From positions 1-61,357 of the IMG/VR virus record IMGVR_UViG_3300048584_000008: 61,357 nucleotides of DNA. The stretch is one strand, 5' to 3'. Shown here piece after piece: positions 2,124-58,594 of the stretch. Source of the stretch: a virus. The translations under genes were made by a program, and so were the position numbers. The notes under the pieces are model-generated. The model was not told where the DNA came from. It worked only from the letters and a program-made list of their open reading frames with translations, and did no database searches. How positions within the stretch are numbered: position 1 is the first letter of the stretch; each line of letters opens with the position of its first letter.

Positions 2124-2127
2124 CCCT

Positions 2128-3526: not shown

Positions 3527-3528
3527 TC

Positions 3529-7778: not shown

Positions 7779-9381
7779 GCTAGACTTTAGCAACGCCGAG
7801 CAGGCTCTTAAGAGCCTACCTAAGTTTGACGTCAACGAGTTTAACCTAGCAGTACAGGCTATGGGCGAGGATATCGTGTCTGGTAAGGCAGATAATAGGT
7901 CGATGCAGACCTTTCTCGCCATGCTAGAGGAGCTAGAGAAGCGGGAGGCCGGAGCCGGTACGGGTAAGTGGTTTGTTCCCGGCACTCCCTACGGAATCGA
8001 GAACTGCCCTAAGCACCGGGCGTTCTTTGACGCCGGAGCCGAGTACAAGGAACGCATCTTTCTAGCGTCTAACCGTACTGGTAAGTCTATCGCGGGAGCT
8101 TTCGAGATGGCTTGCCACCTTACCGGGGAATACCCCGACTGGTGGAGAGGGGTTAAGTTCGATAGACCCATCTCGGCGTGGGCTACTGGCGCTACTGCCC
8201 GTACTACACGAGACGTTGTACAGCAGGAGCTTATTGGGCCTATGGGTAGCTGGGGTACCGGCATGATTCCCCTAGAGAAGATGGGCCGTTCTTGGGCGCT
8301 ACAGGGCACACCAGGCGGTCTAGACGTACTAGAAGTTAAGCACAAGTCCGGGGGCATGTCACGCCTAGGATTCAAGAATTATGAGCAGTCTATCGACACC
8401 TTCATGGGTGTCAAGCTAGACGTGGTTTGGCTGGACGAAGAGTGCCCACAGAACATTTACAACGAATGTTTGATGCGTACTATGACTACACACGGCATCG
8501 TTATGGTTACCTTCACCCCGCTTAAGGGCCTGACACCGTTTGTGGTTAGCTTCCTCAGCAAGGCAGAGTTTCTGGCAGGTGCTAGGCCGATTACGGTCCC
8601 CGCCAAGGACAAGCCGGAAGGCGACGATGAAGGAGAGGATGCCCGATTCAAGGACCTAGTTAGGTCTAAGGCCGTGATTCAGGCGGGCTGGGATGACGCT
8701 CCGTGGCTAGAAGAGAGCCAGAAGGCTAAGATGCTGGACGATACGGCCCCTCACCTACGAGCTGCTCGTTCTAAGGGTATCCCGGCTATGGGTTCTGGCA
8801 ACGTTTACCCGATTCCTTTCGAGGAAATCTCGTGTAATCCGTTCAAGATACCCGAGCACTACAAGAGAATGTACGCCCTAGACGTGGGCTGGAACAGAAC
8901 CGCCGCTCTCTGGGCCGCAATTGACCCAGATACGGACACAATCTATATCCATGACGAGCACTACATGGGAGAAGCTCCGCCAGCCGTACACACTGCCGCT
9001 ATCAGAGGGCGTGGAGACTGGATTCCGGGAGTAATCGACCCAGCCTCGCGTGGCCGTAGCCAGATTGACGGGCTTAATCTATTCCAAATCTACAAGGATA
9101 TGGGGCTTAAGCTTAATAAAGCGAATAACGAAGTAGAGAGCGGTATTGCCCTCGTGTGGGCGCTGATGTCTACTGGTAGACTCAAGATATTTTCTAACCT
9201 AACTCACTTTCCAAGTGAATATTTAATCTACCGCCGGGACGATAAGGGCCGCATAGTAAAGGAAAAAGACCATCTGATGGACTGCCTCCGATACATTGTC
9301 AATAACCAGATAAGAGCCATGTCGAAACGCGCGATATCAAACAGAGGAGTGGGGGATGGAAGCCGAAACTATGACATCTGA
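7771..9381 (+). CDS. Terminase large subunit (packaging ATPase and nuclease)
   Basis: 536 residues. The ATPase domain carries Walker A SNRTGKS (residues 100-106) after a hydrophobic strand and Walker B VVWLDEE (Asp222, Glu223). The C-terminal RNase H-like nuclease starts at YALDVGWNRTAALW (Asp371), has the second acidic region in GVIDPASRGRS, and ends with KDHLMDCLRYI. It translocates and cuts concatemeric DNA at the portal. Gene order small terminase, large terminase, portal is standard. Leucine codons here are mostly CTA: six of the first eight. Confidence 0.93.
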   Translation: MSELDFSNAEQALKSLPKFDVNEFNLAVQAMGEDIVSGKADNRSMQTFLAMLEELEKREAGAGTGKWFVPGTPYGIENCPKHRAFFDAGAEYKERIFLASNRTGKSIAGAFEMACHLTGEYPDWWRGVKFDRPISAWATGATARTTRDVVQQELIGPMGSWGTGMIPLEKMGRSWALQGTPGGLDVLEVKHKSGGMSRLGFKNYEQSIDTFMGVKLDVVWLDEECPQNIYNECLMRTMTTHGIVMVTFTPLKGLTPFVVSFLSKAEFLAGARPITVPAKDKPEGDDEGEDARFKDLVRSKAVIQAGWDDAPWLEESQKAKMLDDTAPHLRAARSKGIPAMGSGNVYPIPFEEISCNPFKIPEHYKRMYALDVGWNRTAALWAAIDPDTDTIYIHDEHYMGEAPPAVHTAAIRGRGDWIPGVIDPASRGRSQIDGLNLFQIYKDMGLKLNKANNEVESGIALVWALMSTGRLKIFSNLTHFPSEYLIYRRDDKGRIVKEKDHLMDCLRYIVNNQIRAMSKRAISNRGVGDGSRNYDI

Positions 9382-26800: not shown

Positions 26801-28576
26801 CAGGGGTCGGCGGAGAGAATCAAGGCTGCAGCGTTCTGGGGTGTAGAGAAGTGGATAGGCTTTGCTGCTGGTGTGAAGATGCTGCAGTTAGTGGCTAACA
26901 TTTCTAACGCCGGTCTGAACTATGGTGGTGGTGTGGTGTCTACTATTGGTAACGGTAACCTGAACGCTAAGGCCATTGCCAAGGCTCACGGTATTGCTAC
27001 CTCGCTCATTGCTGCCCAGACTTCCTCTCACTCCACGCCGGAGATGTTGAAGGTTATCCGGGCCGGTATCACCGACAACGCCATGCTAGGTTCTATCCGT
27101 AAGGTAGAGGCCGAGAAGCTTAACGAAGTGCTATTCGCCCACCTTGAGTCTCCTATAGAGAAGAAGCGCAGTAAGGCCCAGCGTGGGCTGGCTGCCGGTG
27201 GCCGAGTCTGGAGAGAGACGTACGCTATGGCTGACGTCGTGTGGAAGATTGCTAACTTCCTAGAGGAAGAGCGCAAGCTTACCGCATTCTACAAGGCTGA
27301 GGGTATCGAGATATCTGCAGAGGAGATTGAGCGCCGGGCTGCGTGGAATACTAACCAGTCTAACTTCTCTTACAAGAGAGTGCCCAGCCTTATCAAGGAC
27401 ATCGAGAAGGGTGGTATCACGTACGTTATGCCGTACGTCTACGAGACTTTCCGTGCCCCTATCGGTAACATCTTTGTTGGACTATCCGACCTTAAGAAGG
27501 CTAGCGAAGCTAAGACTACCGAGGGCAAGAAGATTATGATGGCCTCCGGTGTACGCCGTGTGGTTGGTGGCGCTCTAGCTATGGGTGTTATGCAGATGGC
27601 TATGCACGCCACGGCCCAGATGATTGCCGAGAACTTCGGCGGAGAGGACGAAGAGTGGACCAATAAGCTTAGGGTCTTCATGCCTGACTACAAGAAGTTT
27701 GCTGACCTAATCTATCTGGGTGATAACTCAGAAGGTGAGGCGGTAATCCTAGAGTTCTCTAGACTTGATCCGTTCGGCCCGTCTACGGAGTTCTTCCGTA
27801 TGGCCGTGGCAGGTGCGGAGCCGGAAGAGTACCTGCAGGCGGCTAAGAACTTGTTGATTGTTAACCCGTACGGTAGGGGTATGGTTCAGGCCTTCTTCGG
27901 GCAGGGTGGTACCAACACTCGGATGCAGGAGATTACTCCTGAGTTCTACAGCAAACTAGTAAACGCCTTTGAGTGGGTAGGTATGGACGGTCTACGCGGG
28001 GCCAAGGCAATTGACCTGCTACTGCCCTCGGCTATAGTTCGCCCCTTCGACCCGGGCAACAAGCCGGTAGAGAATGAGATATTTACCAGTATGTTCACTG
28101 CTCTAGGCGGTCAGCTCCACAACATAGACCCGAACAAGTCTGTTAAGTTTGCGACGGATGACTTCTCTCGCGTGTCCAACGAGATACGTGGGGACTTCTA
28201 TACCCTACTCAAGACGGATACTGACCTAGATGATAACCAGCTTCTATCCAAGATGGTTGACCTCCGAGAGAGGGAGCGAGATAACTTTAAGAAGTTGCAG
28301 GCTCTACATGATGGTATGATTGACATAGGCTACACGCCACAGGAAGTCATGGCTGACCTAGCTTCGAGGAGAGTATCCCCTACCAATCTAGCCATGCTTA
28401 ACATGGGTGGCTACGTGCCTGAGGGTTCGGGCATAGTATCTGTCAGGGGTCTCAAGCAGTCTTGGTCGCAGGTTAACGCCAGCCCCATTGGCGATGACCG
28501 CAAGAATACCTACTACAACAACATCCTACGCACGCTGCAGCTCGCAGAGTCGGGGCAAATTCCGGTGAGGGAGTAA
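20849..28576 (+). CDS. Giant polyvalent ejected protein with metallopeptidase-like and ADP-ribosyltransferase-like domains
   Basis: 2575 residues from a GTG start. Residues 1-400 hold hydrophobic Ala/Gly-rich segments; about 400-900 is charged coiled coil. HELLH at 1041-1045, after an ATWIRVA strand, is a zinc metallopeptidase motif. Residues 1300-1525 (LFHGSR at 1303-1307, GIHATVAPQVATTF, GFDGIVYL, then FLKPQDVKSVTDNDGEF) follow the ART-like fold seen in phage polyvalent proteins. The last 700 residues (WIGFAAGVKMLQLVANISNA, later ITYVMPYVYETFRAPIGNIF) resemble the C-terminal 'large polyvalent protein associated' membrane domain. It is probably ejected with DNA, forming an envelope channel and delivering effectors (family knowledge plus inference). 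Confidence 0.8.
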   Translation: MAYITLDQKASIYNSLDDNLRAKLDAGKITWEEAASYVVPMGDLELARARELPQGVGAVTPVAQPSLDAQPAVDPSVARNSSRDEIKRGMIGLEGFLPTIQEGLALSEMEAADRAMAIREGRAEAFDSQPYKDAFGDALNNAGTRAGVNPVSAGYAAVGLGLDALNIGTSQINDKLNATFRSDADIQAKRQRAEQVAFEQVEALTQVSRELAKLPPNLASQEFQDAVDSGNYFTAAQLAPSAAYYVSLQNAPTLAAQAAISAATAAITKNPTAIRTVMGATGALGESTEISNDYMDVLSRLSPEEQADPSARFAAFKTAAESTLARMAVGAVVPAGLASGTGNIARDVAQVTALNVAQEMGGEAIASDIRGADYTAGSLLLEGLGGLGGGVAEGGGMVWNDYRENKLGRNLTRSLQEQADEATANLVRDNERRDAEQRLAEANREAFDAEVEADRAIQEILDRKASADQLNNATQTEMPFGSDLTPGENDRTPTIQDMFTGESVAATKAEQQREANKEEAGKLAKGERTLTEDEFELQSQRTTAAKDSIDNRKQADFETEEQSKEKRRTLLAEDQTILKNERQLQSTADITREAQRRLEIEKEEIRRKPENRRGVRNARLTETLDAYERKRRPELVAQVRAERLKRIVEARDRTIAEENRNVALDDIAVQADLDARSEARLAKEREDTLDLPTDLFSTPEVKGQQELLSGEISQQPARPTYTGTLTEKQAQQEAAALLLARQKAKEDTRPKAQAKATEEEVAAAEQLAREVDAELPTIEKILAKAQTKAANLTVKAYAQKEAKAQEDFIKEAAAKEGATLATVKVEAASRMAEWRKANPKPAAAPEVTAATDKLVKQAEKIQKDREKAEKVKETKNLTKALKREMATGKTPAEAAEAVNRELSKEEDADVRAELAGATTANPTAATGTATRRRYGDAVRQTTPDGKGVFFESTGLRAALDKVMASDSRTKPGDLLRAILAHPEASRGEKWLANRLVGLIDNLDIKLIDVPTEPETATWGGAFIPSKNATWIRVATAEVILHELLHAVTSNVISSKAVRANPKIAAAVRQLNDVLAAVQLAYGEQQGSISGRLATILSNKQGPLSNTTELVSYALTEDVFMEWLETVPMPGPKKTAWQGFKDAIKSIFTPRNAEQNTALDEILDATSSLTMVQEQTPAVNAWASSEAKSKATRVNPQSIPGLLGNEESRKNTLNKTLAQLSSMYKNLAKAIAATARDSTLGDSLAEFRDSAFETPIEEMANRTIENADLTTYRQKLGQLPRNLAKWAGLENKMVTEDGELMPLFHGSRVQTGANGKSFSAFRMPVDSGQLGIHATVAPQVATTFNKKAGEMGLMSQADDALYVMAGRMSNPLRLRDFGLWDARAILVSLRKSTNPQEIRLAKELRRLQDALEEGGVVADADTREAILNAGFDGIVYLNRMEMGLTGVVTDKVAGPRLDKLGIPLLPLDGEQRGFYNTTQGQNAARVTITLNSLSDEDFSKVFPEAAESYIFLKPQDVKSVTDNDGEFSESSDIYASDAGDVEITEDEAFTNPVSKKVFFGPGGKIRPEWGHKGTIVEAVFDSLSAGGGKIDYTKGVRSSIAEIFERSGSEAGALIAEAEGYFKAMDGALYRQARKAKQDTDAYRTGFSSAVAEFEKLGEGLSKSQKAKDLTTKYGNAAKAYFQARAKIDSMSAEILQQRLDDPRPFTEAEAKIYRSIKENMGRYYSRVYAASTKGIGTKRAKKLWKEFEEYAAGTPNAEFKDGYDIIRNAIQYVSKNHLIVPDVDTLEEMSLTELQDMATAWGIRTGGLADIDNPLTAPVRKERLIEELSKFADATPAVRQQQARVLVEQLLFSRAHAALNKFYRGQSQDLTIVSEKKAVPEEIRKLLGEYEDLPLKAMTTMIRMATFRSTTKAFSELLASQKGKTILTADQVRERDLSPQEWSPLSGETYGPLNGMYVRKDLLANIESSMEITRTFDQLIGMGEQGSAERIKAAAFWGVEKWIGFAAGVKMLQLVANISNAGLNYGGGVVSTIGNGNLNAKAIAKAHGIATSLIAAQTSSHSTPEMLKVIRAGITDNAMLGSIRKVEAEKLNEVLFAHLESPIEKKRSKAQRGLAAGGRVWRETYAMADVVWKIANFLEEERKLTAFYKAEGIEISAEEIERRAAWNTNQSNFSYKRVPSLIKDIEKGGITYVMPYVYETFRAPIGNIFVGLSDLKKASEAKTTEGKKIMMASGVRRVVGGALAMGVMQMAMHATAQMIAENFGGEDEEWTNKLRVFMPDYKKFADLIYLGDNSEGEAVILEFSRLDPFGPSTEFFRMAVAGAEPEEYLQAAKNLLIVNPYGRGMVQAFFGQGGTNTRMQEITPEFYSKLVNAFEWVGMDGLRGAKAIDLLLPSAIVRPFDPGNKPVENEIFTSMFTALGGQLHNIDPNKSVKFATDDFSRVSNEIRGDFYTLLKTDTDLDDNQLLSKMVDLRERERDNFKKLQALHDGMIDIGYTPQEVMADLASRRVSPTNLAMLNMGGYVPEGSGIVSVRGLKQSWSQVNASPIGDDRKNTYYNNILRTLQLAESGQIPVRE

Positions 28577-37702: not shown

Positions 37703-37778
37703 TGGTGCCAGCACTAGGGCTCGAACCTAGGACCTAGCGGTTATCGACCGCTTGCTCTACCAACTGAGCTATGCTGGC
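37703..37778 (-). tRNA. tRNA-Ile (anticodon GAT), unusual C33
   Basis: A full cloverleaf with encoded CCA: acceptor GCCAGCA/TGCTGGC, D stem GCTC/GAGC, anticodon stem AGCGG/CCGCT, T stem CTAGG/CCTAG with TTCGAGC loop. The seven-base anticodon loop reads TCGATAA, giving anticodon GAT but C instead of the almost invariant U at position 33. Confidence 0.88.
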
Positions 37779-37782
37779 TATC

Positions 37783-37866
37783 TGGTGCACCCGGAGGGAT
37801 TCGCACCCCCACTCCTTGCGGAACTGGATCCTAAGTCCAGCGCGTCTACTGTTCCACCACGGGTGC
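37783..37866 (-). tRNA. tRNA-Leu (anticodon TAG)
   Basis: A class II tRNA with long variable arm and encoded CCA. The anticodon arm is CTGGA-CTTAGGA-TCCAG, giving TAG, which reads CTA. CTA is the favoured leucine codon of most genes in this genome, so this tRNA probably supplies the phage's special demand. Confidence 0.92.
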
Positions 37867-37874
37867 GTGATTAA

Positions 37875-38042
37875 TTACCGTACTGCAATAAGGTTACGGG
37901 TATCGTAGATAAACTGAGAGGAGGTCTTGCGGACGCGGGCAGCAGCTCGGGTGGCATAGCCGTGGCCGGACTTAAGTGTGTTCTTGTTGACCAGAACCCA
38001 GCGCTTACCATTGATAGCTTCATATTCATACTTGGTCTTCAT
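37875..38042 (-). CDS. Small basic hypothetical protein within the tRNA cluster
   Basis: 55 residues (MKTKYEYEAINGKRWVLVNK, ending RNLIAVR). AGGAG lies seven bases before ATG. A basic mixed beta/alpha sequence with an Arg/Lys-rich middle (ATRAAARVRKTSS). No known family; its placement between tRNA genes suggests co-transcription from the promoter at 38344. Confidence 0.65.
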   Translation of the reverse strand: MKTKYEYEAINGKRWVLVNKNTLKSGHGYATRAAARVRKTSSQFIYDTRNLIAVR

Positions 38043-38094
38043 GTGTCTCTCCTACTGGGGGTCAGAGGAAATCCCGCCTCGACTTCGGGTAAAG

Positions 38095-38170
38095 TGGTGC
38101 CGCCTGCACGAATCGAACGCGCGACATCCTGATTACAAAACAGGTGCTCTGCCTACTGAGCTAAGGCGGC
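38095..38170 (-). tRNA. tRNA-Thr (anticodon TGT)
   Basis: Cloverleaf with encoded CCA: acceptor GCCGCCT/AGGCGGC, D stem GCTC/GAGC, anticodon loop TTTGTAA (TGT), T loop TTCGATT. The top pair of the anticodon stem is a T/T mismatch (CCTGT with TCAGG), otherwise regular. Confidence 0.88.
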
Positions 38171-38175
38171 TAGGG

Positions 38176-38254
38176 TGGAGCGAGACTGGAGAGTCGAACT
38201 CCGCGTTCTTCAGCTTGGAAGGCTGCTGCCCGCCCCTTGGGCTAGTAATCTCGC
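38176..38254 (-). tRNA. tRNA-Gly (anticodon TCC)
   Basis: 79 bases including CCA. Acceptor GCGAGAT/GTCTCGC, anticodon loop CTTCCAA (TCC, reads GGA), T loop TTCGACT. The D arm is unusual: a GCCC/GGGC stem is preceded by five rather than two linker bases. It is the first gene after the promoter at 38344-38372. Confidence 0.8.
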
Positions 38255-44881: not shown

Positions 44882-46087
44882 TTAAACAGATGTATAACGA
44901 GAGATGCTTGGACTCAGCCTTACAGGGAAGCTAGCGTGGTCACCAGACAACTTATTCTTGGGAAGACTAATCATTCTCAGCCCCTGATTCTCTAGTGCCG
45001 GGGTCACACCGATACCAATCATCACGTCCGCTTGCGACGGAATGCCTACGTTAGAGAAGTCAACGTCACCTTGGTCAAGTACTTCCTTGTTGCGAGCAGA
45101 CTCACCTGCCTGCGTCACAGAAAACACAGCGATGCCCATCTTCTTAGCTAGGTTACGCATGGCAGTAGCCGCTGCTTCCAGCTGAAGTACCCTACTCTCA
45201 GACTTCATAGCCACGTTACGCAGCTGGTCAACGACAATCCACTTAGCATTGTACCTATCTGCGTAGTCCTCAATCTGCCGGGGAGTACCCGGTGCCACGC
45301 TAAGGAACTGAACGTTAGCTAAACCTTGGTCCGTTGCTTGCTGAAGTGCGGCCTCCGGGTTAGCCAGTATCTCGTGCTTAGTCATGCCGGTGAGGCATGA
45401 TATCAGCCGAACTAACATGTCCTGCGGCCTATCCTCGTTGCCGAAGTACACACCCATCAGTCCCTGCCTAGCGAATCCAGCAGCGATGGTCAGCATCAGC
45501 GCAGTCTTACCTGCCTCTGACATACCGTACACTACTACGTGGTGGCCCCCTCTCACGCCACCGTCTATGTGATTAGAGATAGCCATAGGGTATACAGCCA
45601 TCTTAGTACTATCATCTGCCTCGCCAGTAAGGATGGATAAGAAGTTAGTACTATCTACTACCTCAACCCCTTCCTCTGTTAGGTCCTCTAGCTCGGTCAA
45701 CCTACATACTGTTTGATACTCTTCTAGTAACCCCTCGTGGTCTCTATCCTCAACAATTGCTTGCGCTAGAGATAACCCTAGCTCCGTTTTCCTAGCCCCC
45801 AATACTACCTGCCGCACGTTAACCTCTGATATATCCAGAGATACTGCACTGTCTACTAGGGTACTAAACTCTAGTAAGTGCTTGTCGTTACGCGTAGTAT
45901 CTTCGAGTAATCCCTTAAGGGTATTACCGTCTACTTTAGTAGCCGTAGTATCTCGGCCATAGTAACTAGATACTTGGTCGAATACTATCTGAAAGGCTCG
46001 TGAGTATTTCCTTAAGTCAATGTGCCCAGAGATAAGGTCGAAGCTTTCTCTTGAGCGCAGACTCGCCGCTAATAGTGTGGTCTCCAT
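44882..46087 (-). CDS. Replicative DNA helicase (DnaB-like, RecA-fold)
   Basis: 401 residues. Walker A GMSEAGKT at 188-195 after HHVVVYG; Walker B in YNAKWIVVDQLRNV; the Gln of IAVFSVTQAGESARN and NVGIPSQADVMIGI match DnaB motifs 3 and 4. An N-terminal helical domain of about 150 residues precedes the ATPase. It unwinds DNA ahead of the polymerase. TAATG junction with the previous gene. Confidence 0.88.
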   Translation of the reverse strand: METTLLAASLRSRESFDLISGHIDLRKYSRAFQIVFDQVSSYYGRDTTATKVDGNTLKGLLEDTTRNDKHLLEFSTLVDSAVSLDISEVNVRQVVLGARKTELGLSLAQAIVEDRDHEGLLEEYQTVCRLTELEDLTEEGVEVVDSTNFLSILTGEADDSTKMAVYPMAISNHIDGGVRGGHHVVVYGMSEAGKTALMLTIAAGFARQGLMGVYFGNEDRPQDMLVRLISCLTGMTKHEILANPEAALQQATDQGLANVQFLSVAPGTPRQIEDYADRYNAKWIVVDQLRNVAMKSESRVLQLEAAATAMRNLAKKMGIAVFSVTQAGESARNKEVLDQGDVDFSNVGIPSQADVMIGIGVTPALENQGLRMISLPKNKLSGDHASFPVRLSPSISRYTSV

Positions 46088-46455
46088 TAGATAACATCAT
46101 ACTGTTCAACAATCTGCGAGACTAGCTCGGGGTCGTCGTATTGAAACCTATCAGGCAGGTTAAGCGTACGTATCTGTTTGTCCTCCATCTTACCAAAGTG
46201 GGCAGACAGCTGATGGAACACCTCAGGGTTAGCACACACAATCTCGTCAGCCCACTCAATCAGTACCTCGTCCACAGGTATGAGAGCGTAGTCAGTATAC
46301 ACACCCGCCGCTCTGGTGTTGAAGTTGTACGGCGGATTGGCAAGCACCTTAGCCATAGTGGGGCTACGCAGAAGTCCAGCCGAGCAAAGGCACAAGACCT
46401 TATAGGCCGGGCCTTGGTTAGGATTCTTTACATTGTACATGCGGTTGTGCGACAT
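46087..46455 (-). CDS. Low-molecular-weight tyrosine-phosphatase-like protein
   Basis: 122 residues, AAGGAG before ATG. CSAGLLRSP at 24-32 is the CX5R phosphate-binding loop (Cys24, Arg30). TRAAGVYTD, DEIVCANPEV and IRTLNLPDRFQYDDPELV follow the order of the 'predicted protein tyrosine phosphatase' family (COG4551-like). It may remove phosphate from host or phage proteins or RNA ends. A counter-acting kinase was not found. Confidence 0.78.
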   Translation of the reverse strand: MSHNRMYNVKNPNQGPAYKVLCLCSAGLLRSPTMAKVLANPPYNFNTRAAGVYTDYALIPVDEVLIEWADEIVCANPEVFHQLSAHFGKMEDKQIRTLNLPDRFQYDDPELVSQIVEQYDVI

Positions 46456-49297: not shown

Positions 49298-50572
49298 TTA
49301 ATGTAAGACCGCGTTATTGCGGAGCTTATCAATCTCTTGTGATACAGCGTCGGCAATACTATCGGCATCCTTGCTTGAGTTATTACGACGGACAACGAAC
49401 GACATCTCTCTTGCCCCACTTACGTTATCAACTACGGGGAAGGCACCAACAATTACCACAGGTACCACCGCCTCCTTGCGTATGAACTCATAGGCACCGG
49501 GAGATACGTGGCGCATCACAGCCCGTGTGCTGTCTCCATCCAGCTCGGCCTCACCATACAGGGTGTAGGAATCGGAGTCGTATACGTCACCCATAAAGCT
49601 GCATTCCACGCCCGCTACAGCAGCTACCTTGGCAAGACGCATTTCCTCTTCGTTGGCGTGTACCTTGAACTTCATTCGTACCTTAGCCCCAGTAGGGGCG
49701 GGAGTAACAACAGCGGGAGTTACCTCTGCCGGCTTTAGCAGCGCCAGCATACTATTGACCATCTGCTCTTGCGTGTTAACCACCGAGTAGCCACGCGACC
49801 TACCCCGTCTGGACCAGCCGGGCTGCCACTCCCCCTCGTTGTACACTGCAGCCGGGGTCACGGCCTGCGGAAGAGGAGAAGAGCTGAACTGGCGGGGGTT
49901 CGTGACATCGAACGTGTACTTACGCTCGGGCTTGAGATCAAGTACCTCAGGCTCAAGGGACAGACCGTTGCGACGGCAGAGCCACGCCATCATCTCTGGC
50001 TCGGACGCCAGCAGCATGCGGTTAGTGTCCTTGATGTAGCCTGCAAACATCGGGCGATCTGCGTTACGAGCGATGAACAGCTTATCCTTCTCATCCTGAT
50101 CGTACCACACGAAGGCGAACGCACCCTTGAACAGAGCGAACGCCTCGTCACCCTGCTCGGCGATCATGTTCATCGCCCACTCTGAGTCCACGTCATACTT
50201 GACAGAGTTCCAGCCCTGAAGCGTGCCGTTGTGCACGCCTATAAGCAGAGACTTATTAGCCTTCTCTGCCGTGAACGGATGGGCCGTGGCGTCGAGGATA
50301 TCTCCCGTAGTAGCCGCCCGATTGTGTCCGATAGTAATCCGGCTGCTGTCTGTGTCCCTAAGAAAGCCGCTAGCCTTAGGGTCATTAACGAAATCCCAGC
50401 CTGCCTTAGCAGCCTTATAGGAGTACAGCTTCTTAGCGTCTAGCTGAAAGAGCCCAGTAGAATCATCCCCTCGCAGGGAGTTACACACCAGAGCCTGCTC
50501 GAACAGCTTTGTGATAGACAGGTCAGCACTACGACTACCTTCCCCATTAACTATACCTACGATACCACACAT
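49298..50572 (-). CDS. Class II glutamine amidotransferase with C-terminal extension
   Basis: 424 residues. It starts MCGIVGIV, exposing Cys2 as nucleophile, with SLRGDDSTGLF, GHNRAATTGDIL, HPF and VHNGTLQGW of the Ntn glutaminase fold. It releases ammonia from glutamine for a partner. About 200 C-terminal residues (a linker rich in Arg/Ser, then a beta domain) are unlike standard enzymes. It neighbours amidoligases, so ammonia or a glutamine-derived amine is probably used there (inference). Confidence 0.85.
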   Translation of the reverse strand: MCGIVGIVNGEGSRSADLSITKLFEQALVCNSLRGDDSTGLFQLDAKKLYSYKAAKAGWDFVNDPKASGFLRDTDSSRITIGHNRAATTGDILDATAHPFTAEKANKSLLIGVHNGTLQGWNSVKYDVDSEWAMNMIAEQGDEAFALFKGAFAFVWYDQDEKDKLFIARNADRPMFAGYIKDTNRMLLASEPEMMAWLCRRNGLSLEPEVLDLKPERKYTFDVTNPRQFSSSPLPQAVTPAAVYNEGEWQPGWSRRGRSRGYSVVNTQEQMVNSMLALLKPAEVTPAVVTPAPTGAKVRMKFKVHANEEEMRLAKVAAVAGVECSFMGDVYDSDSYTLYGEAELDGDSTRAVMRHVSPGAYEFIRKEAVVPVVIVGAFPVVDNVSGAREMSFVVRRNNSSKDADSIADAVSQEIDKLRNNAVLH

Positions 50573-51768
50573 TAGAACTGCTCCTCATTGATACCCTCGG
50601 GCTGATCAGGTAGTCCTACCTCAACGGGCGGCTGCTCGCCAAAGGGCGACGGGTCGTACCCCCCGGAAGTGAGATAGGGCGGCGGAGTAGTTGGTCTAGA
50701 CCTCGCTCTAGAAGACTCCTGCATCCGCGCGAGTTCGCTGATAGTAAATGTCGCACCCGATGTAATTACCTCTGGCCGTGGGATAGCCGAGGCACGCACG
50801 GTGGTTGTCTTAGGACGGGCAACCTTAGGTGCCGGAGGCTTGACTTCTGGGCGCTTAGCTCGGGCCTTACCGATAAACGTAGCGAGGAGATTGTTGGTCT
50901 CCCACCCACGCAGCGCATCCGAGTCAGCCCCACCGTAGCACGCGATCATACCAAGGCGACGATACGCCTGTCTGTCAGGCACGATGCTACGCAGCTGGCT
51001 GCCGAAGGTAGGCATCAAGGACTCGATGACGGCCATGTCTTCGGGGCTGTTGTACATACTGAGCACGGATACATCGCGCTCGGCCAGTTCGGTTGCTGCC
51101 TTCTTAAGCTCCATCAACAAATGAATCCAGCGGATAAGCCGGCCCATGTCCGAAAGCCCGGGCATGTGGCGGAACTCGATAGTACCATAGCGCATCAGCG
51201 CATACAGGTTCAGACCATAGTACCTGCTGGCGTTGCTGCTCGTGTCATTCAGCAGACGGGAAACGGTCTCGATGCTTTCACTACGCAGCACAGCAACGAG
51301 CGGCTCAGGCGGAGAGTCCTCGAAGGGGTGGCAGTACGAGCACCACTTGCGCTGCGGATCAGACAGACGGAAGAACGCATCCTCGTAGATGTAGTAGAGG
51401 GCGCAGAGATTGTGCAACGACTCCATCGTGTCCGTGTCTTGCCGCATGTTCATGTGGATATGCACCGACGTGCGCGGTCCAGTCGTGTAGCTGGTGACGA
51501 AGCGGAAGAAGTCGTTGATCGCCTGCGTTAGGTGGGTGCCCATGAGTGGCTCGGCCAGTACCAGCTCGGTACCACTACGAAGGCTGTGATCTTCCTTGTT
51601 CTCCCAGAAAGGGGACTCCGCCAGCAGACGACGCACCTGCCCATTGCTGTAGTTCTCAATCTCTATCTCCACTCCGATGTACTGGCCGGCGAGGGGCCAC
51701 TCCGCACCCGGCTGAGGGATGAGCATCGGGCGGCGCTGGGTAAGACGGAACAACTTAGTGTTAGCCAC
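50572..51768 (-). CDS. Amidoligase-like enzyme (COOH-NH2 ligase, first of three)
   Basis: 398 residues from GTG 51768 with GAGGAG upstream. Motifs of the glutamine-synthetase-like amidoligase fold appear: YIGVEIEIENYS (Mg/ATP Glu residues), DHSLRSGTELVLAEPLMG, TSVHIHMNM and YGTIEFRHMPG. It should join an amine to a carboxyl using ATP. The C-terminal 110 residues are Pro/Thr-rich and disordered. TAATG junction with the glutamine amidotransferase. Confidence 0.82.
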   Translation of the reverse strand: MANTKLFRLTQRRPMLIPQPGAEWPLAGQYIGVEIEIENYSNGQVRRLLAESPFWENKEDHSLRSGTELVLAEPLMGTHLTQAINDFFRFVTSYTTGPRTSVHIHMNMRQDTDTMESLHNLCALYYIYEDAFFRLSDPQRKWCSYCHPFEDSPPEPLVAVLRSESIETVSRLLNDTSSNASRYYGLNLYALMRYGTIEFRHMPGLSDMGRLIRWIHLLMELKKAATELAERDVSVLSMYNSPEDMAVIESLMPTFGSQLRSIVPDRQAYRRLGMIACYGGADSDALRGWETNNLLATFIGKARAKRPEVKPPAPKVARPKTTTVRASAIPRPEVITSGATFTISELARMQESSRARSRPTTPPPYLTSGGYDPSPFGEQPPVEVGLPDQPEGINEEQF

Positions 51769-52417
51769 GGGTGGTCTCCTCTTCCCAAAGACTATTAACG
51801 GTGGGGTTACTTATGGACATTGTTACTGCTCCGCTCGGAGTGATGTAGCCTATTTTACGGCGGCGGTACAGGATATCAAGCTCTTCCGAACGGGGGCTAG
51901 GTGCTATCGCAAACTCCGCAGATGAGCAGAAGAACGGAATCTCCCCGGCCAGTACCTTAGGCAGGCCTACGGCAAACGGGGTGTACTTAGGCATCATCAC
52001 TGCCTCCATCTTCCTCTCTACCAGTACCGAGTGGTGGCGAGATGTAATACCGGGCTCGCCTAAGTAACCGAGGTTACTCTCGATAGCCTCACATGCGAAG
52101 TGAGGAACCACCAGCACGTCCTGCATGTGCAAGCCTCTACGAGTAGATGGGCGGCGAAAGTAATAGCCGAGGAAGTTGCCTGCCTCATCTTGGCGATAGC
52201 CCAGAGTGGGGTAGGAAAACTTATCCCACGTGTCGAAGTACTCCGCGTCGATGATCACGTCGTGCTCCTCTATCTCGCAGTTGGCATAGCGTACGGCTAA
52301 CGCCCGGCCTGAATCAGTTACACCCTGTAGTACGTGAGGCTTCCCCTTGTAGAGGAAGCTAGCTCCGTTAAACATATCGTTCGCGTAGCCGAAGCCAAGC
52401 TCCGAGAATAGGCTCAT
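51761..52417 (-). CDS. Hypothetical protein of the amidoligase island
   Basis: 218 residues from ATG 52417 (AAAGGAG ten bases upstream). Beta-rich first half (GASFLYKGKPHVLQGVTDSG) and a C-terminal segment with LDILYRRRKIGYITPSGAVT. I recognise no domain. Its place between ligase genes suggests it is a substrate, carrier or accessory protein. Confidence 0.62.
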   Translation of the reverse strand: MSLFSELGFGYANDMFNGASFLYKGKPHVLQGVTDSGRALAVRYANCEIEEHDVIIDAEYFDTWDKFSYPTLGYRQDEAGNFLGYYFRRPSTRRGLHMQDVLVVPHFACEAIESNLGYLGEPGITSRHHSVLVERKMEAVMMPKYTPFAVGLPKVLAGEIPFFCSSAEFAIAPSPRSEELDILYRRRKIGYITPSGAVTMSISNPTVNSLWEEETTRG

Positions 52418-52418
52418 C

Positions 52419-53087
52419 TTAACTGCTCTCCTTTTGCACACGGGTGAGGGGGATCATAAACTTTGTGTTCTCTGTCGCAAGCAAGGCTCGGAAATTACGT
52501 ATCATCATCTCCTTCTCCGTCACCTTTGGGGCTGGTGTCTCAGGTGCTACAACAGCTATCCCCTTGCCGGGCATCTTGCCCTTGCTCATCACAGTATGGA
52601 AGCTACCATCCTGCATGTAGCGTTGCACCAAGAAGTTACCAGACTTACTGATGCTGTCCACCTTGTACAACTTAAGCACAGCAGTAAGGGCCTCCTCTCC
52701 GCTGCGTGCCTGCATGTCGTGCATCACGACGTAGGCAGCTAGCGCCGTAGGATAAGCTGAGACACGGTACTTCTGGAAAGGAAGTTCTACACTCTCTGCA
52801 GCTGGGGCTTCGGAGGCCACAGTTCTGCGTAGCCCTGCCCCATATACAATCTTGGCGGCCCCGGACTTATCTAGGGCCAGCACTACGCCCTTAACTCCAA
52901 CCTCGTTCGGACCACCTATACCGATAGCCCGGCACACTTTACTCAAGGCCTCAATCTTGCTAGCCCCACTACCTGTTACAACGGATACCTCCTTTACTTC
53001 GCCGCTGTCGTAGTGTACATGACCTATCCACGAGGCTAGACCTGTATCTTGTGGATCGTACGGCCAGTGATCATCGTGCTCCTGCAT
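52419..53087 (-). CDS. Hypothetical protein of the amidoligase island
   Basis: 222 residues from ATG 53087 with AGAGGAG six bases upstream, overlapping the ATP-grasp gene by 17 bases. It has a beta N-terminal part (SWIGHVHYDSGEVKEVSVVT) and an Ala-rich helical middle (PTALAAYVVMHDMQARSGEE). No family recognised. Possibly a peptide carrier or regulator. Confidence 0.6.
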   Translation of the reverse strand: MQEHDDHWPYDPQDTGLASWIGHVHYDSGEVKEVSVVTGSGASKIEALSKVCRAIGIGGPNEVGVKGVVLALDKSGAAKIVYGAGLRRTVASEAPAAESVELPFQKYRVSAYPTALAAYVVMHDMQARSGEEALTAVLKLYKVDSISKSGNFLVQRYMQDGSFHTVMSKGKMPGKGIAVVAPETPAPKVTEKEMMIRNFRALLATENTKFMIPLTRVQKESS

Positions 53088-53841
53088 CTCTGACTCCTCT
53101 GATGTACTCGACGTAAGCAGCCAAGACCGTAGGGCTTTCGATACCCGGTGCCGTGTTGACTTCCAGGACATAGGCCTCTGTTCCCTTCTTGTTCACGATG
53201 ATATCAACTGCTCCGAAGTCAAGCCCTAACGCCTTGACTGCGGCAACAGAATACGAACGTACCTTCTCCTCTATTTCCGGTGAAGTAAAGCGAACATCGT
53301 TAACCGCAAAGACCCAGCCGTTAGCGGCGTTGCGGATGAGCGCGGCATCTCCTGTTAGCGCATCACCATTGCGTCGTCGCTTCTGCTGCACTACGGCAGC
53401 CCGATCACCCAGTACATGGACGCGATACTCCGCTGACTTGCGGATGTACTCAACGTACAGTGGGGCAGGCGGAATCACCGTGTCCTCTGGTCGTATGACT
53501 ATGATACCCCGCCCACCCGAGGCACGCAACAAAGTGCGGGCCAGATAAATCTTATCTCGGGGGGACGTTGTTGACAAATCGTCACCCGCCGATGGGACCG
53601 GGAGCCCCGCTGAGGACAGAATCGAAATGGACGTGGACTTGTTCACGGCTTGGGCTACTGCGGCGGGGCTGTTGAGCACGCGGTCGTGCGGAAGAGGCGA
53701 GCTGCTGCCCCAGTTCACGATCAAGGACGAGAGTATCCGCGTGTTCAATGCCCGTCCAGGGCGCAGACGACGAAAGTTCCCCGCCCTCTGCAATAAGAGT
53801 GCAGATGCGGATGGCCTGCTCCGGTAAACGTACACTGGCAT
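53071..53841 (-). CDS. RimK-like ATP-grasp ligase
   Basis: 256 residues. VLNSPAAVAQAVNKSTSISI is the typical N-terminal subdomain, LYVEYIRKSAEYRVHVLGD the central lid, and AYVLEVNTAPGIE the Mg/ATP site. Phage RimK-like proteins add amino acids or make amide bonds. The ATG at 53841 has AGGAG nine bases upstream and lies 260 bases inside the neighbouring amidoligase gene in another frame. Its N-terminal 86 residues, including the INWGSS motif, look authentic. Confidence 0.82.
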   Translation of the reverse strand: MPVYVYRSRPSASALLLQRAGNFRRLRPGRALNTRILSSLIVNWGSSSPLPHDRVLNSPAAVAQAVNKSTSISILSSAGLPVPSAGDDLSTTSPRDKIYLARTLLRASGGRGIIVIRPEDTVIPPAPLYVEYIRKSAEYRVHVLGDRAAVVQQKRRRNGDALTGDAALIRNAANGWVFAVNDVRFTSPEIEEKVRSYSVAAVKALGLDFGAVDIIVNKKGTEAYVLEVNTAPGIESPTVLAAYVEYIRGVRDAGAR

Positions 53842-54715
53842 AGACTATATCTCCTATTACGAAGTCGTTGCGTGAAGACATGCGTATCGTATCAGACACG
53901 GTAATGCTATTGATGAACTGCTGCAGCTCCTCAGAGGTAGCATTAAGGGGGGGAAGAACCGGAGTAAGCATGCGCTCCACCAGCACACGTGAGTAGCTAC
54001 TAGCCTGAGTCATCACTGAGTGTGCAAAGCAGGCCGCAAGCCACAGGTCTACTCTGCTCTCGACCCGCTCGGCCACATCGTACACGAACTCAACGCACCG
54101 CCGCAGGTTGCTGGGGTCTAGCGTACTTGCCGGAGCGCGGAACTCTAGCACCCACGTCGGACTGCTCGGGTCTACCTGCCTCATCCGTGCGGGCTGGTAC
54201 TTCGTGGGGCTGGTATACACGGTACGGCTACCGTTTCCACCAAAGGCACCAAGACGCATACTTGGCACGCCTGCTGTGGCTCTGGTTGCTACTCTCCCTG
54301 CTACTCGTGCTACCTCGGGAGTCATCCAGCCCAGCAGGTATGCCACTACCTGCCGCTGTCTGTACGACCAGTCGCTGACGTTGAAGTTGACGTGCATGCC
54401 GTACCCGGAGCGAGTCTCTTCCGTACCGGCAGCACGCAACCGCTCCATCATACGGGTTATGTACCCGTTGTCAGCCAGCACTTCCTCCACTGGTAGTGGC
54501 GGGCACACAATCTCTACTCCGTTGCGGTTGTCGAGAGACCCGTCAAGTTCGAGGATAGGCGCAGGCCATTGCCCATACTCAACCTGATCCATCGCTTGGG
54601 CAACTACATCGGAGCCGCTGTTGTGGTGTACCTCAAGCTCAAGGCCGATCCACTTACCTGACAGGGCACTCTCTCGCCAGTCAGGCTGCTGCGAGTGGTA
54701 TGAAGTAATACGCAT
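53582..54715 (-). CDS. Amidoligase-like enzyme (second of three)
   Basis: 377 residues. WIGLELEVHHNS, LELDGSLDNRNGVEIVCPPL, YGMHVNFNVS and WVLEFRAPASTLD carry the Glu/His/Arg pattern of the amidoligase fold. The last 86 codons are shared out of frame with ATP-grasp and look like passive sequence (SSARPRAQQPRRSSPSREQ). Starts four bases after the next gene's stop. Confidence 0.82.
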   Translation of the reverse strand: MRITSYHSQQPDWRESALSGKWIGLELEVHHNSGSDVVAQAMDQVEYGQWPAPILELDGSLDNRNGVEIVCPPLPVEEVLADNGYITRMMERLRAAGTEETRSGYGMHVNFNVSDWSYRQRQVVAYLLGWMTPEVARVAGRVATRATAGVPSMRLGAFGGNGSRTVYTSPTKYQPARMRQVDPSSPTWVLEFRAPASTLDPSNLRRCVEFVYDVAERVESRVDLWLAACFAHSVMTQASSYSRVLVERMLTPVLPPLNATSEELQQFINSITVSDTIRMSSRNDFVIGDIVYASVRLPEQAIRICTLIAEGGELSSSAPWTGIEHADTLVLDRELGQQLASSARPRAQQPRRSSPSREQVHVHFDSVLSGAPGPIGG

Positions 54716-54718
54716 GGG

Positions 54719-55339
54719 TTACACCTCTCTGCCGTAGGAGGACGCTCCACTCGTGGGAACCGAGCACACACCGGGGCCGCCGATGACAGCCGGAGTGTTG
54801 TGGCTGCGGTAAGGGCGGAAGCCACTGTGAGAATACCAGATGCCGTTATCCCACGTACCCTGTGCAGCGTTGGCAATCAGGTACGTGTTGTCGCTGAACA
54901 AGAATGCCATCTTGTTGTAGTAACCAACCAGCTCTCCTATCTTGGTGAGCTGCTCTCCTACCTTGCCGGGAGTAGCGTACTCCAAGATAGCCGAGGCAAG
55001 GATGTTGGTATCCGAGGGACCAGTCTGTCCCGGGTAGAAGAAGCTGCCGTTGTGGATGATAGCAGTCTTGCCGTTGCTGAACGGGTGGGTGTTATCCGCC
55101 GACCTGTCACCACCCGTAGAGATGCGGAAGTGGATGAGGAAGTTGGAGTCAGGGTTATCCCGCTCGTCTGCCCGGTAGCTGGCAATGAAATCACCTATCT
55201 CGAAGAAGCCCTTGCGTACCTCGACCTTATCCTCCTTGACGAAGGCATAGCCGCCGCCGTCGCGGTTCTGCGAGGCACAGTGGCGCAGGATTTCGTCGGT
55301 GATAACAGTACGGCGGGGCCGAACAATTGCGATGCACAT
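54719..55339 (-). CDS. Second class II glutamine amidotransferase
   Basis: 206 residues starting MCIAIV (Cys2 nucleophile), with NRDGGGYAF, LIHFRISTGGD, NTHPF and IIHNGSF. Shorter than the first copy and without an extension. It should supply ammonia by glutamine hydrolysis. AAGGAAGG lies upstream, and a palindromic element sits immediately before this ribosome site. Confidence 0.84.
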   Translation of the reverse strand: MCIAIVRPRRTVITDEILRHCASQNRDGGGYAFVKEDKVEVRKGFFEIGDFIASYRADERDNPDSNFLIHFRISTGGDRSADNTHPFSNGKTAIIHNGSFFYPGQTGPSDTNILASAILEYATPGKVGEQLTKIGELVGYYNKMAFLFSDNTYLIANAAQGTWDNGIWYSHSGFRPYRSHNTPAVIGGPGVCSVPTSGASSYGREV

Positions 55340-55355
55340 CTTTACACCTTCCTTT

Positions 55356-55372
55356 TATATACCGGGATATTA
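55356..55372. promoter_or_regulatory. Palindromic element, copy 1
   Basis: TATATACCGGGATATTA, a member of the right-end family (consensus GAATATACCGGGATATTC). It lies just upstream of the second glutamine amidotransferase ribosome site. Confidence 0.6.
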
Positions 55373-55376
55373 AAAC

Positions 55377-55484
55377 TCAGTACTTGAAGCCGGGATTGCG
55401 GGGCCAGCGTGGGCGAGACCTCATCCTAAGATGGATGAGGACTGCCACAACAGCGACGGCACCGATGCTAGCGAGCACCAGCAC
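55377..55484 (-). CDS. Possible small membrane peptide
   Basis: 35 residues (MLVLASIGAVAVVAVLIHLR then basic RSRPRWPRNPGFKY). One hydrophobic helix and a basic tail. GTG start with AGGAAG six bases upstream; overlaps the previous gene by 17 bases. Weakly supported but in line with the other tiny membrane peptides here. Confidence 0.4.
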   Translation of the reverse strand: MLVLASIGAVAVVAVLIHLRMRSRPRWPRNPGFKY

Positions 55485-56487
55485 GGCGCGCTTCCTGCAC
55501 GACAGGCATGTCCCCGGTAGCAGTCAGCGGGCTACGCTGCTCCAGCTGTGCGAACACGGCTTCGATACCGCCATAACCACCATCTCGGATGTACGTAGCA
55601 ATGGCGACAGTAACCTCCTTGTACCAGCGCAGCTTGAGGATATCCGTGGTGGAGTTGAACAGCTTCATCTCGATCCACCTACGAGGCTGGCCGTTGACGG
55701 TAGTACTCTGCGGGTAGAGGTAGCCGTAAGGCCTGCGCCCGAAGAGTTTGTACACGCAGTTGTCGGGCTCACCAGACCTATCACGCTCAGCCCAATCGTC
55801 GTAGTCTCCGTCGCAATCCTCACAACAGTAGCTGTCTGCGCTACCGCGCATATCCTCGATAGCTCTCGTCACTTCATTCACACGTGCCGCCACGACCACG
55901 CTGCCCCGATGGAGGGCCGGCCACGACACATTGAAGTGGGTACCAATCATGTCGCTGTTGTCCCAAAGCTCCGGCTGCTTGCCCATCACATTGTCGTAGT
56001 ACCCCAGCAGCTGGCACCCCGGCTCAAGCAGCTGGTCTGCCGGGATCGGCGGGAACGTAGCCTCAAGGGGGAACTCGTCGTAACCCTCCATGTCGGCGGT
56101 ACAGTACTCGCACTCGTCCATCAAGTAGGAGTAGGCCTTGCCGTGCTGGGTGGTGTTCTTAAACCCGGCCTCCACTTCCACGCCGATGAGCAGCGGGGCT
56201 TCCGGGTAACGGGCCACGAAGTCAACGTGACTCCACGGACGCACGCCCTTGAAGATACTACGCGTCAAGTTACCCTCTCGATACGCGGCGAAAAGCTGGT
56301 CAGCGGTAGCGCTGCTGAAGCTGACGTCGCGCCAGCGAGATGCCCACTCTGCAACGCTGCCCTTAGGCGTCTTGCCCTCACGGTACCGCAGATCATCCAG
56401 CCCACTGCTCATGAGCCCACTCAGTACGCCACTCATCTCAGTACGGAGACGGGAGTTCCCTTCGATATCCTCTTTGGTGACGATCAT
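55468..56487 (-). CDS. Amidoligase-like enzyme (third, divergent)
   Basis: 339 residues. LLIGVEVEAGF, EFPLEATFPPI, MIGTHFNVSWPAL and RWIEMKLFNSTTD follow the amidoligase order. It differs by an N-terminal extension of about 95 residues and Cys-rich inserts (ECEYC, SYCCEDCDGDYDDW) that could bind zinc. Substrate unknown. AAGGA before ATG. Confidence 0.72.
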   Translation of the reverse strand: MIVTKEDIEGNSRLRTEMSGVLSGLMSSGLDDLRYREGKTPKGSVAEWASRWRDVSFSSATADQLFAAYREGNLTRSIFKGVRPWSHVDFVARYPEAPLLIGVEVEAGFKNTTQHGKAYSYLMDECEYCTADMEGYDEFPLEATFPPIPADQLLEPGCQLLGYYDNVMGKQPELWDNSDMIGTHFNVSWPALHRGSVVVAARVNEVTRAIEDMRGSADSYCCEDCDGDYDDWAERDRSGEPDNCVYKLFGRRPYGYLYPQSTTVNGQPRRWIEMKLFNSTTDILKLRWYKEVTVAIATYIRDGGYGGIEAVFAQLEQRSPLTATGDMPVVQEARRAGAR

Positions 56488-57553: not shown

Positions 57554-57639
57554 TGGTGCCAACGGCGGGACTCGAACCCGCACGGCATTTAGCCAGCGGT
57601 TTTTAAGACCGCTACGCCTACCAGTTACGTCACGTTGGC
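57554..57639 (-). tRNA. tRNA-Leu (anticodon TAA)
   Basis: A class II tRNA with encoded CCA: acceptor GCCAACG/CGTTGGC, anticodon arm GCGGT-CTTAAAA-ACCGC (TAA, reads TTA), long variable arm. Its 5' end overlaps the last codons of the upstream small gene by 15 bases. Confidence 0.9.
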
Positions 57640-57828
57640 TTTGGGTTCAAACAGATGGCCCTCCGGGCCGCAGATTCCAATAGTCCGCTCCTCCTCGCAG
57701 TCTCTTACCTGAACGTGCTCCGCTCCCGTCACAGGAGAGGTTTGCACGTCTGCGTAGCAACGGTGCTGCATGCCTCTCAGTGGCGCGTAGTACTGGAAGT
57801 GGTGCTTACAGTTTACGCAGAGCTTCAT
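57625..57828 (-). CDS. Small Cys-rich (zinc-binding) protein overlapping a tRNA
   Basis: 67 residues from ATG 57828 with GGAGG upstream. CVNCKHH near the start and further Cys (HRCYAD, RDCEEE, GICGPEGH) suggest a zinc ribbon. Its final codons and stop lie in the 5' end of tRNA-Leu. A longer frame to 57900 would run through another tRNA and is not used. Confidence 0.58.
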   Translation of the reverse strand: MKLCVNCKHHFQYYAPLRGMQHRCYADVQTSPVTGAEHVQVRDCEEERTIGICGPEGHLFEPKANVT

Positions 57829-57842
57829 CTTGTAGCCTCCAT

Positions 57843-57859
57843 TTATATACCAGTATATC
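57843..57859. promoter_or_regulatory. Palindromic element, copy 2
   Basis: ATATACCAGTATAT (57845-57858) is a perfect palindrome of the right-end family. It lies just before the ribosome site of the Cys-rich gene and just after tRNA-Ile2/Met. Confidence 0.55.
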
Positions 57860-57866
57860 TTTACTT

Positions 57867-57943
57867 TGGTGGGCCTGCTCGGGCTTGAACCGAGAACCAA
57901 ACGATTATGAGTCGTACGCTCTAACCAATTGAGCTACAGGCCC
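57867..57943 (-). tRNA. tRNA with anticodon CAT, resembling tRNA-Ile2 (lysidine type)
   Basis: Full cloverleaf with encoded CCA: acceptor GGGCCTG/CAGGCCC, anticodon loop CTCATAA (CAT). The arm and variable loop (ACGACTCATAATCGTTTGG) match bacterial tRNA-Ile2, whose C34 becomes lysidine to read ATA, better than elongator tRNA-Met. Identity needs a proper comparison. Confidence 0.82.
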
Positions 57944-57950
57944 GGCGATT

Positions 57951-58027
57951 TGGCGCGCCGAGAGGGACTCGAACCCCCGACCACAAGCTTAGAAGGCTCG
58001 TGCTCTATCCAGCTGAGCTATCGGCGC
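57951..58027 (-). tRNA. tRNA-Arg (anticodon TCT)
   Basis: Cloverleaf with encoded CCA: acceptor GCGCCGA/TCGGCGC, anticodon loop CTTCTAA (TCT, reads AGA), T loop TTCGAGT. Close to bacterial tRNA-Arg(TCT). AGA and AGG are used often in the phage but rarely in GC-rich hosts. Confidence 0.9.
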
Positions 58028-58037
58028 AAGCGTAGGG

Positions 58038-58292
58038 TCATGGCGAACATCCGTCCCCGGAGCCGTAGCCGTCGCCGCAGCCGTAGCCGTTGCCGGAGCC
58101 GTAGCCGTAGCCGGTGCCGGAGCCGTCGCCGGATTCGGAGCCGTGGCCGGAGCCGTAGCCGTAGCCGGTGCTGTAGCCGTAGCCGGCTCCCGAGCTGTAG
58201 CCGTGGCCGTAGCCGGTGCCGGTGCCGGAGCCGTAGCCGTAGCCGTAGCCGTCGCCGAAGCCGTAGCCGACAAGCCTCAGCGTGCGTGCCAC
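58038..58292 (-). CDS. Gly/Tyr/Ser-repeat protein
   Basis: 84 residues from a GTG overlapping the previous gene. After MARTLRLVGYGFGDGYGYG the whole protein is a G-[Y/S/D/T/H]-G repeat ending GDGCSP. Encoded by a hexanucleotide-type DNA repeat. Such low-complexity phage proteins occur but have no assigned role; phase-separating or surface-binding behaviour is speculation. The other two minus-strand frames give Arg- or Ala/Thr-rich repeats and lack a better start. Confidence 0.55.
   Translation of the reverse strand: MARTLRLVGYGFGDGYGYGYGSGTGTGYGHGYSSGAGYGYSTGYGYGSGHGSESGDGSGTGYGYGSGNGYGCGDGYGSGDGCSP
58045..58270. repeat. GCCGTA/GCCGGA hexanucleotide-like repeat tract
   Basis: About 225 bases built from imperfect copies of GCCGTAGCCG with variants at every sixth base. 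It encodes the Gly/Tyr-repeat protein on the minus strand. The repeats could vary in number by slippage. Confidence 0.85.
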
Positions 58293-58594
58293 TTCGCACC
58301 GTCCGCGTCAATCAACGCAATGAGCGCCCGCAGAGGGGCGCGAACCGTTCCGGTGGCATCCAGCACGGTCTTGGGAAGCGGGCCATTGACCAGCTCGCCC
58401 AGCCCTTTCGTCGTTCCCCACACGCGGATATTCATCGCATGGTGGATGGTCACGAAATCGTTGGCGACCTGCACCGTCCCGGCGTACACGAAGCCTCGGT
58501 CAAGCACGACGATCTTAAAGTCACCCTCCGGCTTCGGCAGAGTGTCTGCGCGGACGTACTCGGTGTTGTCGATTTTGATGGTTGTGGGTGTCAT
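58277..58594 (-). CDS. Hypothetical early protein
   Basis: 105 residues from ATG 58594 (AAGGAG six bases upstream). Beta-rich (IKIDNTEYVRADTLPKPEGD, FKIVVLDRGFVYAGTVQ) with a helical end. No family recognised. Host-like codon use. Confidence 0.6.
   Translation of the reverse strand: MTPTTIKIDNTEYVRADTLPKPEGDFKIVVLDRGFVYAGTVQVANDFVTIHHAMNIRVWGTTKGLGELVNGPLPKTVLDATGTVRAPLRALIALIDADGAKWHAR

Follow-up and report, generated by a model that had tools for sequence, protein, structure and literature searches.

What does a phage make with eight adjoining genes, most of whose products appear to be devoted to amide-bond chemistry, and do these genes form a new type of system? The question is raised by positions 49298–56487 of the IMG/VR virus record IMGVR_UViG_3300048584_000008, which was analyzed over its whole length of 61,357 bases (the window; coordinates refer to this stretch unless another locus is named). 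Eight minus-strand open reading frames (ORFs) had been described there previously from the sequence alone (hereafter the original prediction). All were present, each with a plausible ribosome-binding site, and the motifs ascribed to them (IGVEIEIE, IGLELEV, IGVEVEA, MCGIV, MCIAIV and LEVNTAPG) were all found. The island is, with near certainty, a lineage-specific variant of a known phage cassette and not a new system type. Its main interest lies in the apparent swap of one ligase for another and in U1, a protein without an enzyme assignment, as a core component.

Conserved core of the cassette

A class II glutamine amidotransferase (GATase II), a COOH.NH2 ligase, a protein of ∼190 residues, an Amidoligase_2 protein and an ATP-grasp ligase occur together in phages LUZ24, PA11, CVT22, LAMP, LAh_9 and Privateer and in several marine phages, in agreement with the earlier statement that clusters of this type are known from comparative genomics. 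The published name is putative peptidoglycan modification cassette (PMC5498523; PMC11945000); later papers, in what they cite, trace it to the comparative genomics of Iyer et al. (2009) and Hardies et al. (2013). A reading in terms of peptidoglycan and superinfection has been published for the cassette (PMC5498523; PMC11945000), and a superinfection reading was reported for phiEco32 (PMC10580990). The comparison of operon content that had been proposed was informative: a profile search of IMG/VR gave 71 loci with a relative of AL1, the Amidoligase_2 protein of the island, and at 64 of these all five core genes lay within 8 kb, while the order seen in the record recurred in Stenotrophomonas phage StenR_269 and in contig L092. 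Records of known phages matching AL1 numbered 312, as did those matching the ATP-grasp ligase ATPg (hosts Pseudomonas, Escherichia, Vibrio and others). In LUZ24-like and phiEco32-like phages (positions 1699–3636 of locus L004, and relatives) there are two more conserved proteins ahead of the cassette, phrog_9504 and phrog_7973, which the record lacks.

The class II (Ntn-type) amidotransferase of the canonical cassette is represented by GAT2 (49298–50572), which scored 60 bits against GATase_6 (cut-off 27) and was matched by phrog_4736 (E 5e-49) and by an independent profile (E 7e-66). Its Cys2 nucleophile and its GHNRAATTG and VHNG motifs are all intact, and it is 39% identical to GAT2 of StenR_269 and 37% identical to its counterpart in L092. 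AL1 (50572–51768) is the canonical Amidoligase_2 (PF12224) ligase, with 47 bits against the family model (curated cut-off 22) and matches to phrog_7469 (E 2.5e-37) and to an independent 87-sequence profile (E 9e-52); its GxExE, HxH and EFR motifs are intact and the catalytic columns are invariant. The ATP-grasp amino-acid/peptide ligase of the cassette, ATPg (53071–53841), matched phrog_2599 at E 5e-55, a family annotated as S6 glutaminyl transferase in PHROGs, and has the Mg ligands D and ExN. It had been called RimK-like; the ATP-grasp assignment stands, but the curated RimK cut-offs were missed (18.6 against 21 for Pfam and 41 against 143 for NCBIfam). The top NCBIfam matches were MptN and the RimK family, both under their cut-offs. 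ATPg also fell under the Pfam cut-off for D-Ala ligase, with weak matches to D-Ala-D-Ala ligase models, and MvdC/MvdD-type models for maturases of graspetides (a class of ribosomally synthesized and post-translationally modified peptides) scored far under cut-off. In a tree of ATP-grasp proteins, those of the record, StenR_269 and L092 form one clade (support 100/98).

U1 (51761–52417) belongs to a conserved, phage-only family of cassette proteins of 180–240 amino acids (phrog_11055/phrog_4877 in relatives). The originally proposed start sites, 52417 for U1 and 53087 for the adjacent U2, were adopted. Searched as a single sequence, U1 received no useful score from Pfam, PHROG or NCBIfam. A profile of 77 relatives, from which the proteins of the record and StenR_269 were left out, matched it at E 1.2e-11 and aligned with it over nearly its full length in hhalign (97.8%). 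The family is found in 67 of the 71 related virus contigs, where the gene mostly overlaps or abuts that of AL1. The AlphaFold2 model (predicted local distance difference test (pLDDT) 84, predicted template-modeling score (pTM) 0.80) matched eight phage proteins at E ≤ 0.001 and no PDB structure at that threshold. U1 is a core component of the cassette, a member of a conserved, folded family found only in phages. The suggestion that it might serve as substrate or carrier found no support, because it belongs to this conserved family and neither a tag-like tail nor a carrier domain was recognized. U2 (52419–53087) occupies the slot between ATPg and U1, in which relatives have different small proteins. 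Searches of Pfam, PHROG and phage genomes (tblastn) gave no match to U2, and neither hhalign comparison with its slot-mates nor a search for internal duplication gave anything above shuffled controls.

With U1 as a conserved folded partner, the PHROG annotation of ATPg and its sub-threshold RimK matches would suit the modification of a protein of the host or the phage. A ribosomal or transcription protein might, for example, be glutamylated or amidated in a RimK-like manner, with targeting provided by U1. We consider this distinctly unlikely: ATPg misses the RimK cut-offs, and protein tagging has no obvious need for several ligases of the gamma-glutamylcysteine synthetase (GCS) type together with two amidotransferases and gamma-glutamyl hydrolases.

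These hydrolases are a near-constant part of the canonical form. Genes for a gamma-glutamyl cyclotransferase (GGACT) or a C26 peptidase lay within 8 kb in 61 of 64 canonical cassettes, a count that covers cassette-bearing loci only. When Pfam models were run on 42 cassette virus records in full, C26 peptidase was found in 31 and GGACT in 18, almost always as one copy per record. At positions 2105–2737 of locus L020 and at 47 IMG/VR loci, the cassette-side “glutamine amidotransferase” matches Peptidase C26 (gamma-glutamyl hydrolase type) and not class II GATase. Both families cleave gamma-glutamyl bonds and act on small gamma-glutamyl compounds. Their frequency is a concrete clue to bond type, and it suggests that the cassette probably makes a gamma-glutamyl-type amide itself. 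Neither PF06094 (gamma-glutamyl cyclotransferase) nor PF07722 (C26 peptidase) had a match anywhere in the window.

Hydrolases that act on small compounds would also be expected if the cassette made a small soluble metabolite, such as a gamma-glutamyl peptide or an amidated amino acid, which the phage would use within the cell, say as a signal or antimetabolite, instead of altering the wall. This would agree with none of the eight genes being recognized as a carrier protein, and with MptN, the best NCBIfam match of ATPg, being a cofactor glutamylation enzyme. The sequence points to no particular metabolite, however, and ATPg also shows the weak likeness to D-Ala-D-Ala ligases. We regard a soluble metabolite as rather unlikely.

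Probable ligase exchange and a second amidotransferase

No ORF of the record matched a 78-sequence profile of the COOH.NH2 ligase family (PF14395). In addition to GAT2, AL1, U1 and ATPg, the record's cassette has a small amidotransferase (GATs), a second Amidoligase_2 protein (AL2) and a remote amidoligase-like protein (AL3). GATs and AL3-type ligases stand in the same order in the record, StenR_269 and L092, and contigs L096 and L097, in which AL3 and GATs are likewise encoded, share the variant. In contig L098, GATs is present and a COOH.NH2 ligase sits in the AL3 slot. The simplest reading of these gene orders is that one ligase was replaced by another inside a conserved cassette. GATase II, Amidoligase_2, U1 and ATP-grasp would then be the retained parts, and the COOH.NH2 ligase and the gamma-glutamyl hydrolases the swappable ones. 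This pattern narrows the chemistry and marks U1 as a part that merits solving.

Two glutamine amidotransferases had been predicted, and both assignments held: GAT2 by GATase_6, as given above, and GATs (54719–55339), a small class II enzyme, by a family profile that matched solved PurF/GlmS structures at E 2e-9. GATs alone scored under the Pfam cut-off; its motifs are Cys2, HFR and HNG. Relatives were found in MEP401, StenR_269, and Christensenellales and cave-spring phages, and the family occurs at 67 further viral loci, most with an adjoining amidoligase and often with an ATP-grasp protein as well. On iteration, the GATs and MEPAL profiles came to include GAT2 and AL1, and claims of membership were therefore based on profiles made without sequences from the record.

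Of the three amidoligases originally proposed, AL1 and AL2 pass the Amidoligase_2 cut-off, but AL3 is connected to the group by a remote profile match and motifs only. AL2 (53582–54715) scored 36 bits (cut-off 22) and was matched by the independent AL1 profile (E 1.2e-11; hhalign 97%). It retains the GxExE and EFR motifs and has HxN (GMHVN) in place of HxH. Its 3′ end overlaps the ATPg gene in another frame by 260 bases (53582–53841), and the start of ATPg is backed by homology. In the alternative frame near the AL2 3′ end, stops lie at 53859, 53856 and 53847. Because these directly precede the ATPg start, there may be a frameshift at the 3′ end of AL2, either natural or introduced by the assembly.

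AL3 (55468–56487) gave no useful match in PHROG, NCBIfam or Pfam, including no match to Amidoligase_2 at E 1. Compared with the AL1 family in hhalign, its profile scored 40.7, against 12.7 ± 2.0 (maximum 19.7) for 60 column shuffles and 23.4 for the reversed profile. Its GxExE motif, a conserved acidic stretch, HxN and E(F/M)K are colinear with those of the AL1 family. On the strength of this score and these active-site motifs, AL3 is probably an amidoligase and is treated as a candidate. HxH is present in 86 of 87 AL1 relatives, and HxN stands at the same place in AL2 and all AL3 proteins. Since AL2 scores above the Amidoligase_2 cut-off and has HxN and its neighborhood in common with AL3, it may bridge the Amidoligase_2 and AL3 groups. 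Homologs of AL3 were found in StenR_269 (two), L092, L096 and L097; one contig came from a genome collection, L096 and L097 were reached through the small amidotransferase, and AL3 gave no match when viral contigs were scanned with it as a single sequence or as a profile. A comparison of AL3 with the COOH.NH2 ligase did not support homology between them.

The Cys-rich insert noted originally in one amidoligase is real; it lies in AL3, is specific to this lineage and is absent in four of five relatives, and the L092 protein (Clo_AL3) bears a different Cys insert elsewhere. That one phage has three divergent amidoligases is less unusual than had been judged: StenR_269 also has three, and the canonical cassette already holds two such ligases, the COOH.NH2 ligase and Amidoligase_2. 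The original prediction had made the assignment of the three depend on a glutamine synthetase (GS)-like fold and on catalytic residues. All three keep the motifs, although two of them have HxN in the place of HxH. The fold was modeled for AL3 only, and the AlphaFold2 model, built from an alignment of two sequences, had a pLDDT of 43 and weak GCS/GS matches among other folds, too poor to judge.

Proposed function and genomic setting

The best overall explanation, which we hold tentatively, is a cassette variant that acts on an envelope-pathway peptide through amide bonds. We infer its reactions and target from the identities of the genes. The two class II amidotransferases would hydrolyze glutamine, either to supply ammonia or as glutaminases. 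With ATP and Mg, the GCS/GS-like amidoligases would convert a carboxylate (probably that of a glutamate side chain) into an acyl phosphate and link it with an amine or with ammonia. ATPg would add a further amino acid, and U1 would serve as an accessory subunit. Trimming or recycling of the gamma-glutamyl bond would fall, in most relatives, to a gamma-glutamyl cyclotransferase or C26 peptidase. In the record, AL3 (and AL2) with GATs would take the place of the canonical COOH.NH2 ligase, and with that ligase replaced the linkage made is probably related to the canonical one and not identical. The likeliest target would be a cytoplasmic peptide of the envelope pathway (a muropeptide or peptidoglycan precursor), modified early in infection so as to alter the host surface; this target is possible, if doubtful.

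Several points weigh against this explanation. The literature searched holds no biochemical or phenotypic test, and the cell-wall reading goes back to comparative genomics; although hundreds of known phages have a related cassette, no report determining its product was found there, in line with the original prediction, which settled on no product. With no hydrolase detected in the record, the gamma-glutamyl argument is weaker for its own phage. The AlphaFold2 model of AL3 is too poor to confirm the predicted fold. Lastly, a position beside primase and helicase genes fits a role in replication or nucleotide supply equally well.

Such a role might consist of recycling host glutamine or glutamate nitrogen, or of making an amidated base. 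The cassette abuts the primase gene in the record and in L092, and primase or helicase genes are near it in many relatives. The authors of the StenR_269 description refer to its genes of this cluster as glutamine synthesis genes with a possible benefit to phage fitness (PMC10747016), and Duhaime et al. speak of resources that are limiting being recycled (PMC5498523). Set against this, no base-modification enzyme was found among the neighboring genes examined, and dedicated amide ligases would not be required for mere recycling, which makes a replication role very unlikely in our view.

The record is linear and has no terminal repeats. Structural genes (terminase, portal and major head protein) are on the plus strand of its first half, and replication and early genes (DNA polymerase, helicase, exonucleases and ribonucleotide reductase) are on the minus strand of its second half. 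Its terminase is closest to that of StenR_269 (53% identical), a podophage proposed as the founder of a new family (PMC10747016). An ORF of 2575 residues (20849–28576) has no Pfam match; a similar position in StenR_269 is taken by a large ORF whose annotation reads putative virion-associated RNA polymerase. Another ORF, of 122 residues (46087–46455), has a phosphatase-like CLCSAGLLRSPT motif and no Pfam or PHROG match. Small tRNA clusters are found at 37703–38254 (Ile, Leu, Thr and Gly) and at 57554–58027 (Leu, Met and Arg). A degenerate tandem repeat of eleven overlapping copies, spaced mostly 18 bases apart (58015–58296), overlaps the edge of the tRNA-Arg gene (57951–58027).

Comparison with known cassettes

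The cassettes of LUZ24 (gp16–gp22) and PA11 (gp4–gp8), reported also for phiEco32, RIO-1, PSA-HP1 and CW02, resemble that of the record in having GATase II, Amidoligase_2, a U1-type protein and ATP-grasp near replication genes. They differ in that the record is without PF14395 and without detectable GGACT or C26 peptidase, and has GATs, AL2 and AL3 in addition. MEP401-like and other viral contigs (L099–L162) have, like the record, a GATs-family protein beside an amidoligase, often with ATP-grasp; in contrast to the record, these modules mostly have no GAT2/U1/AL1 part in the available DNA, and their amidoligases are longer and keep HxH where AL2 and AL3 have HxN.

The closest named relative is StenR_269 (OR838459.1, 7097–15255), in which GATs, AL3-type ligases, ATP-grasp, U1, AL1 and GAT2 follow the record's order. 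It has GGACT and two AL3-type ligases, whereas in the record a single AL3 is accompanied by a single AL2 and no GGACT could be detected. L092 (CANRNE010000028.1, 1–10877) was binned as an uncultured Clostridia genome; with primase and helicase genes following its phage cassette, the contig is probably phage DNA, and an intein-looking insert is present in the helicase ORF (8282–10483). One could suppose that the record, StenR_269 and three contigs share a second form of the cassette, in which an HxN subclass of amidoligases, paired with the small amidotransferase, replaces the COOH.NH2 ligase to give a different amide product; with the hydrolase missing, the record's phage would keep this product and not recycle it. 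We think this unlikely. L098 has the order of the record (GATs, ATPg, a small protein, U1, AL1 and GAT2) and keeps the canonical COOH.NH2 ligase where the record has AL3, an arrangement intermediate between the two.

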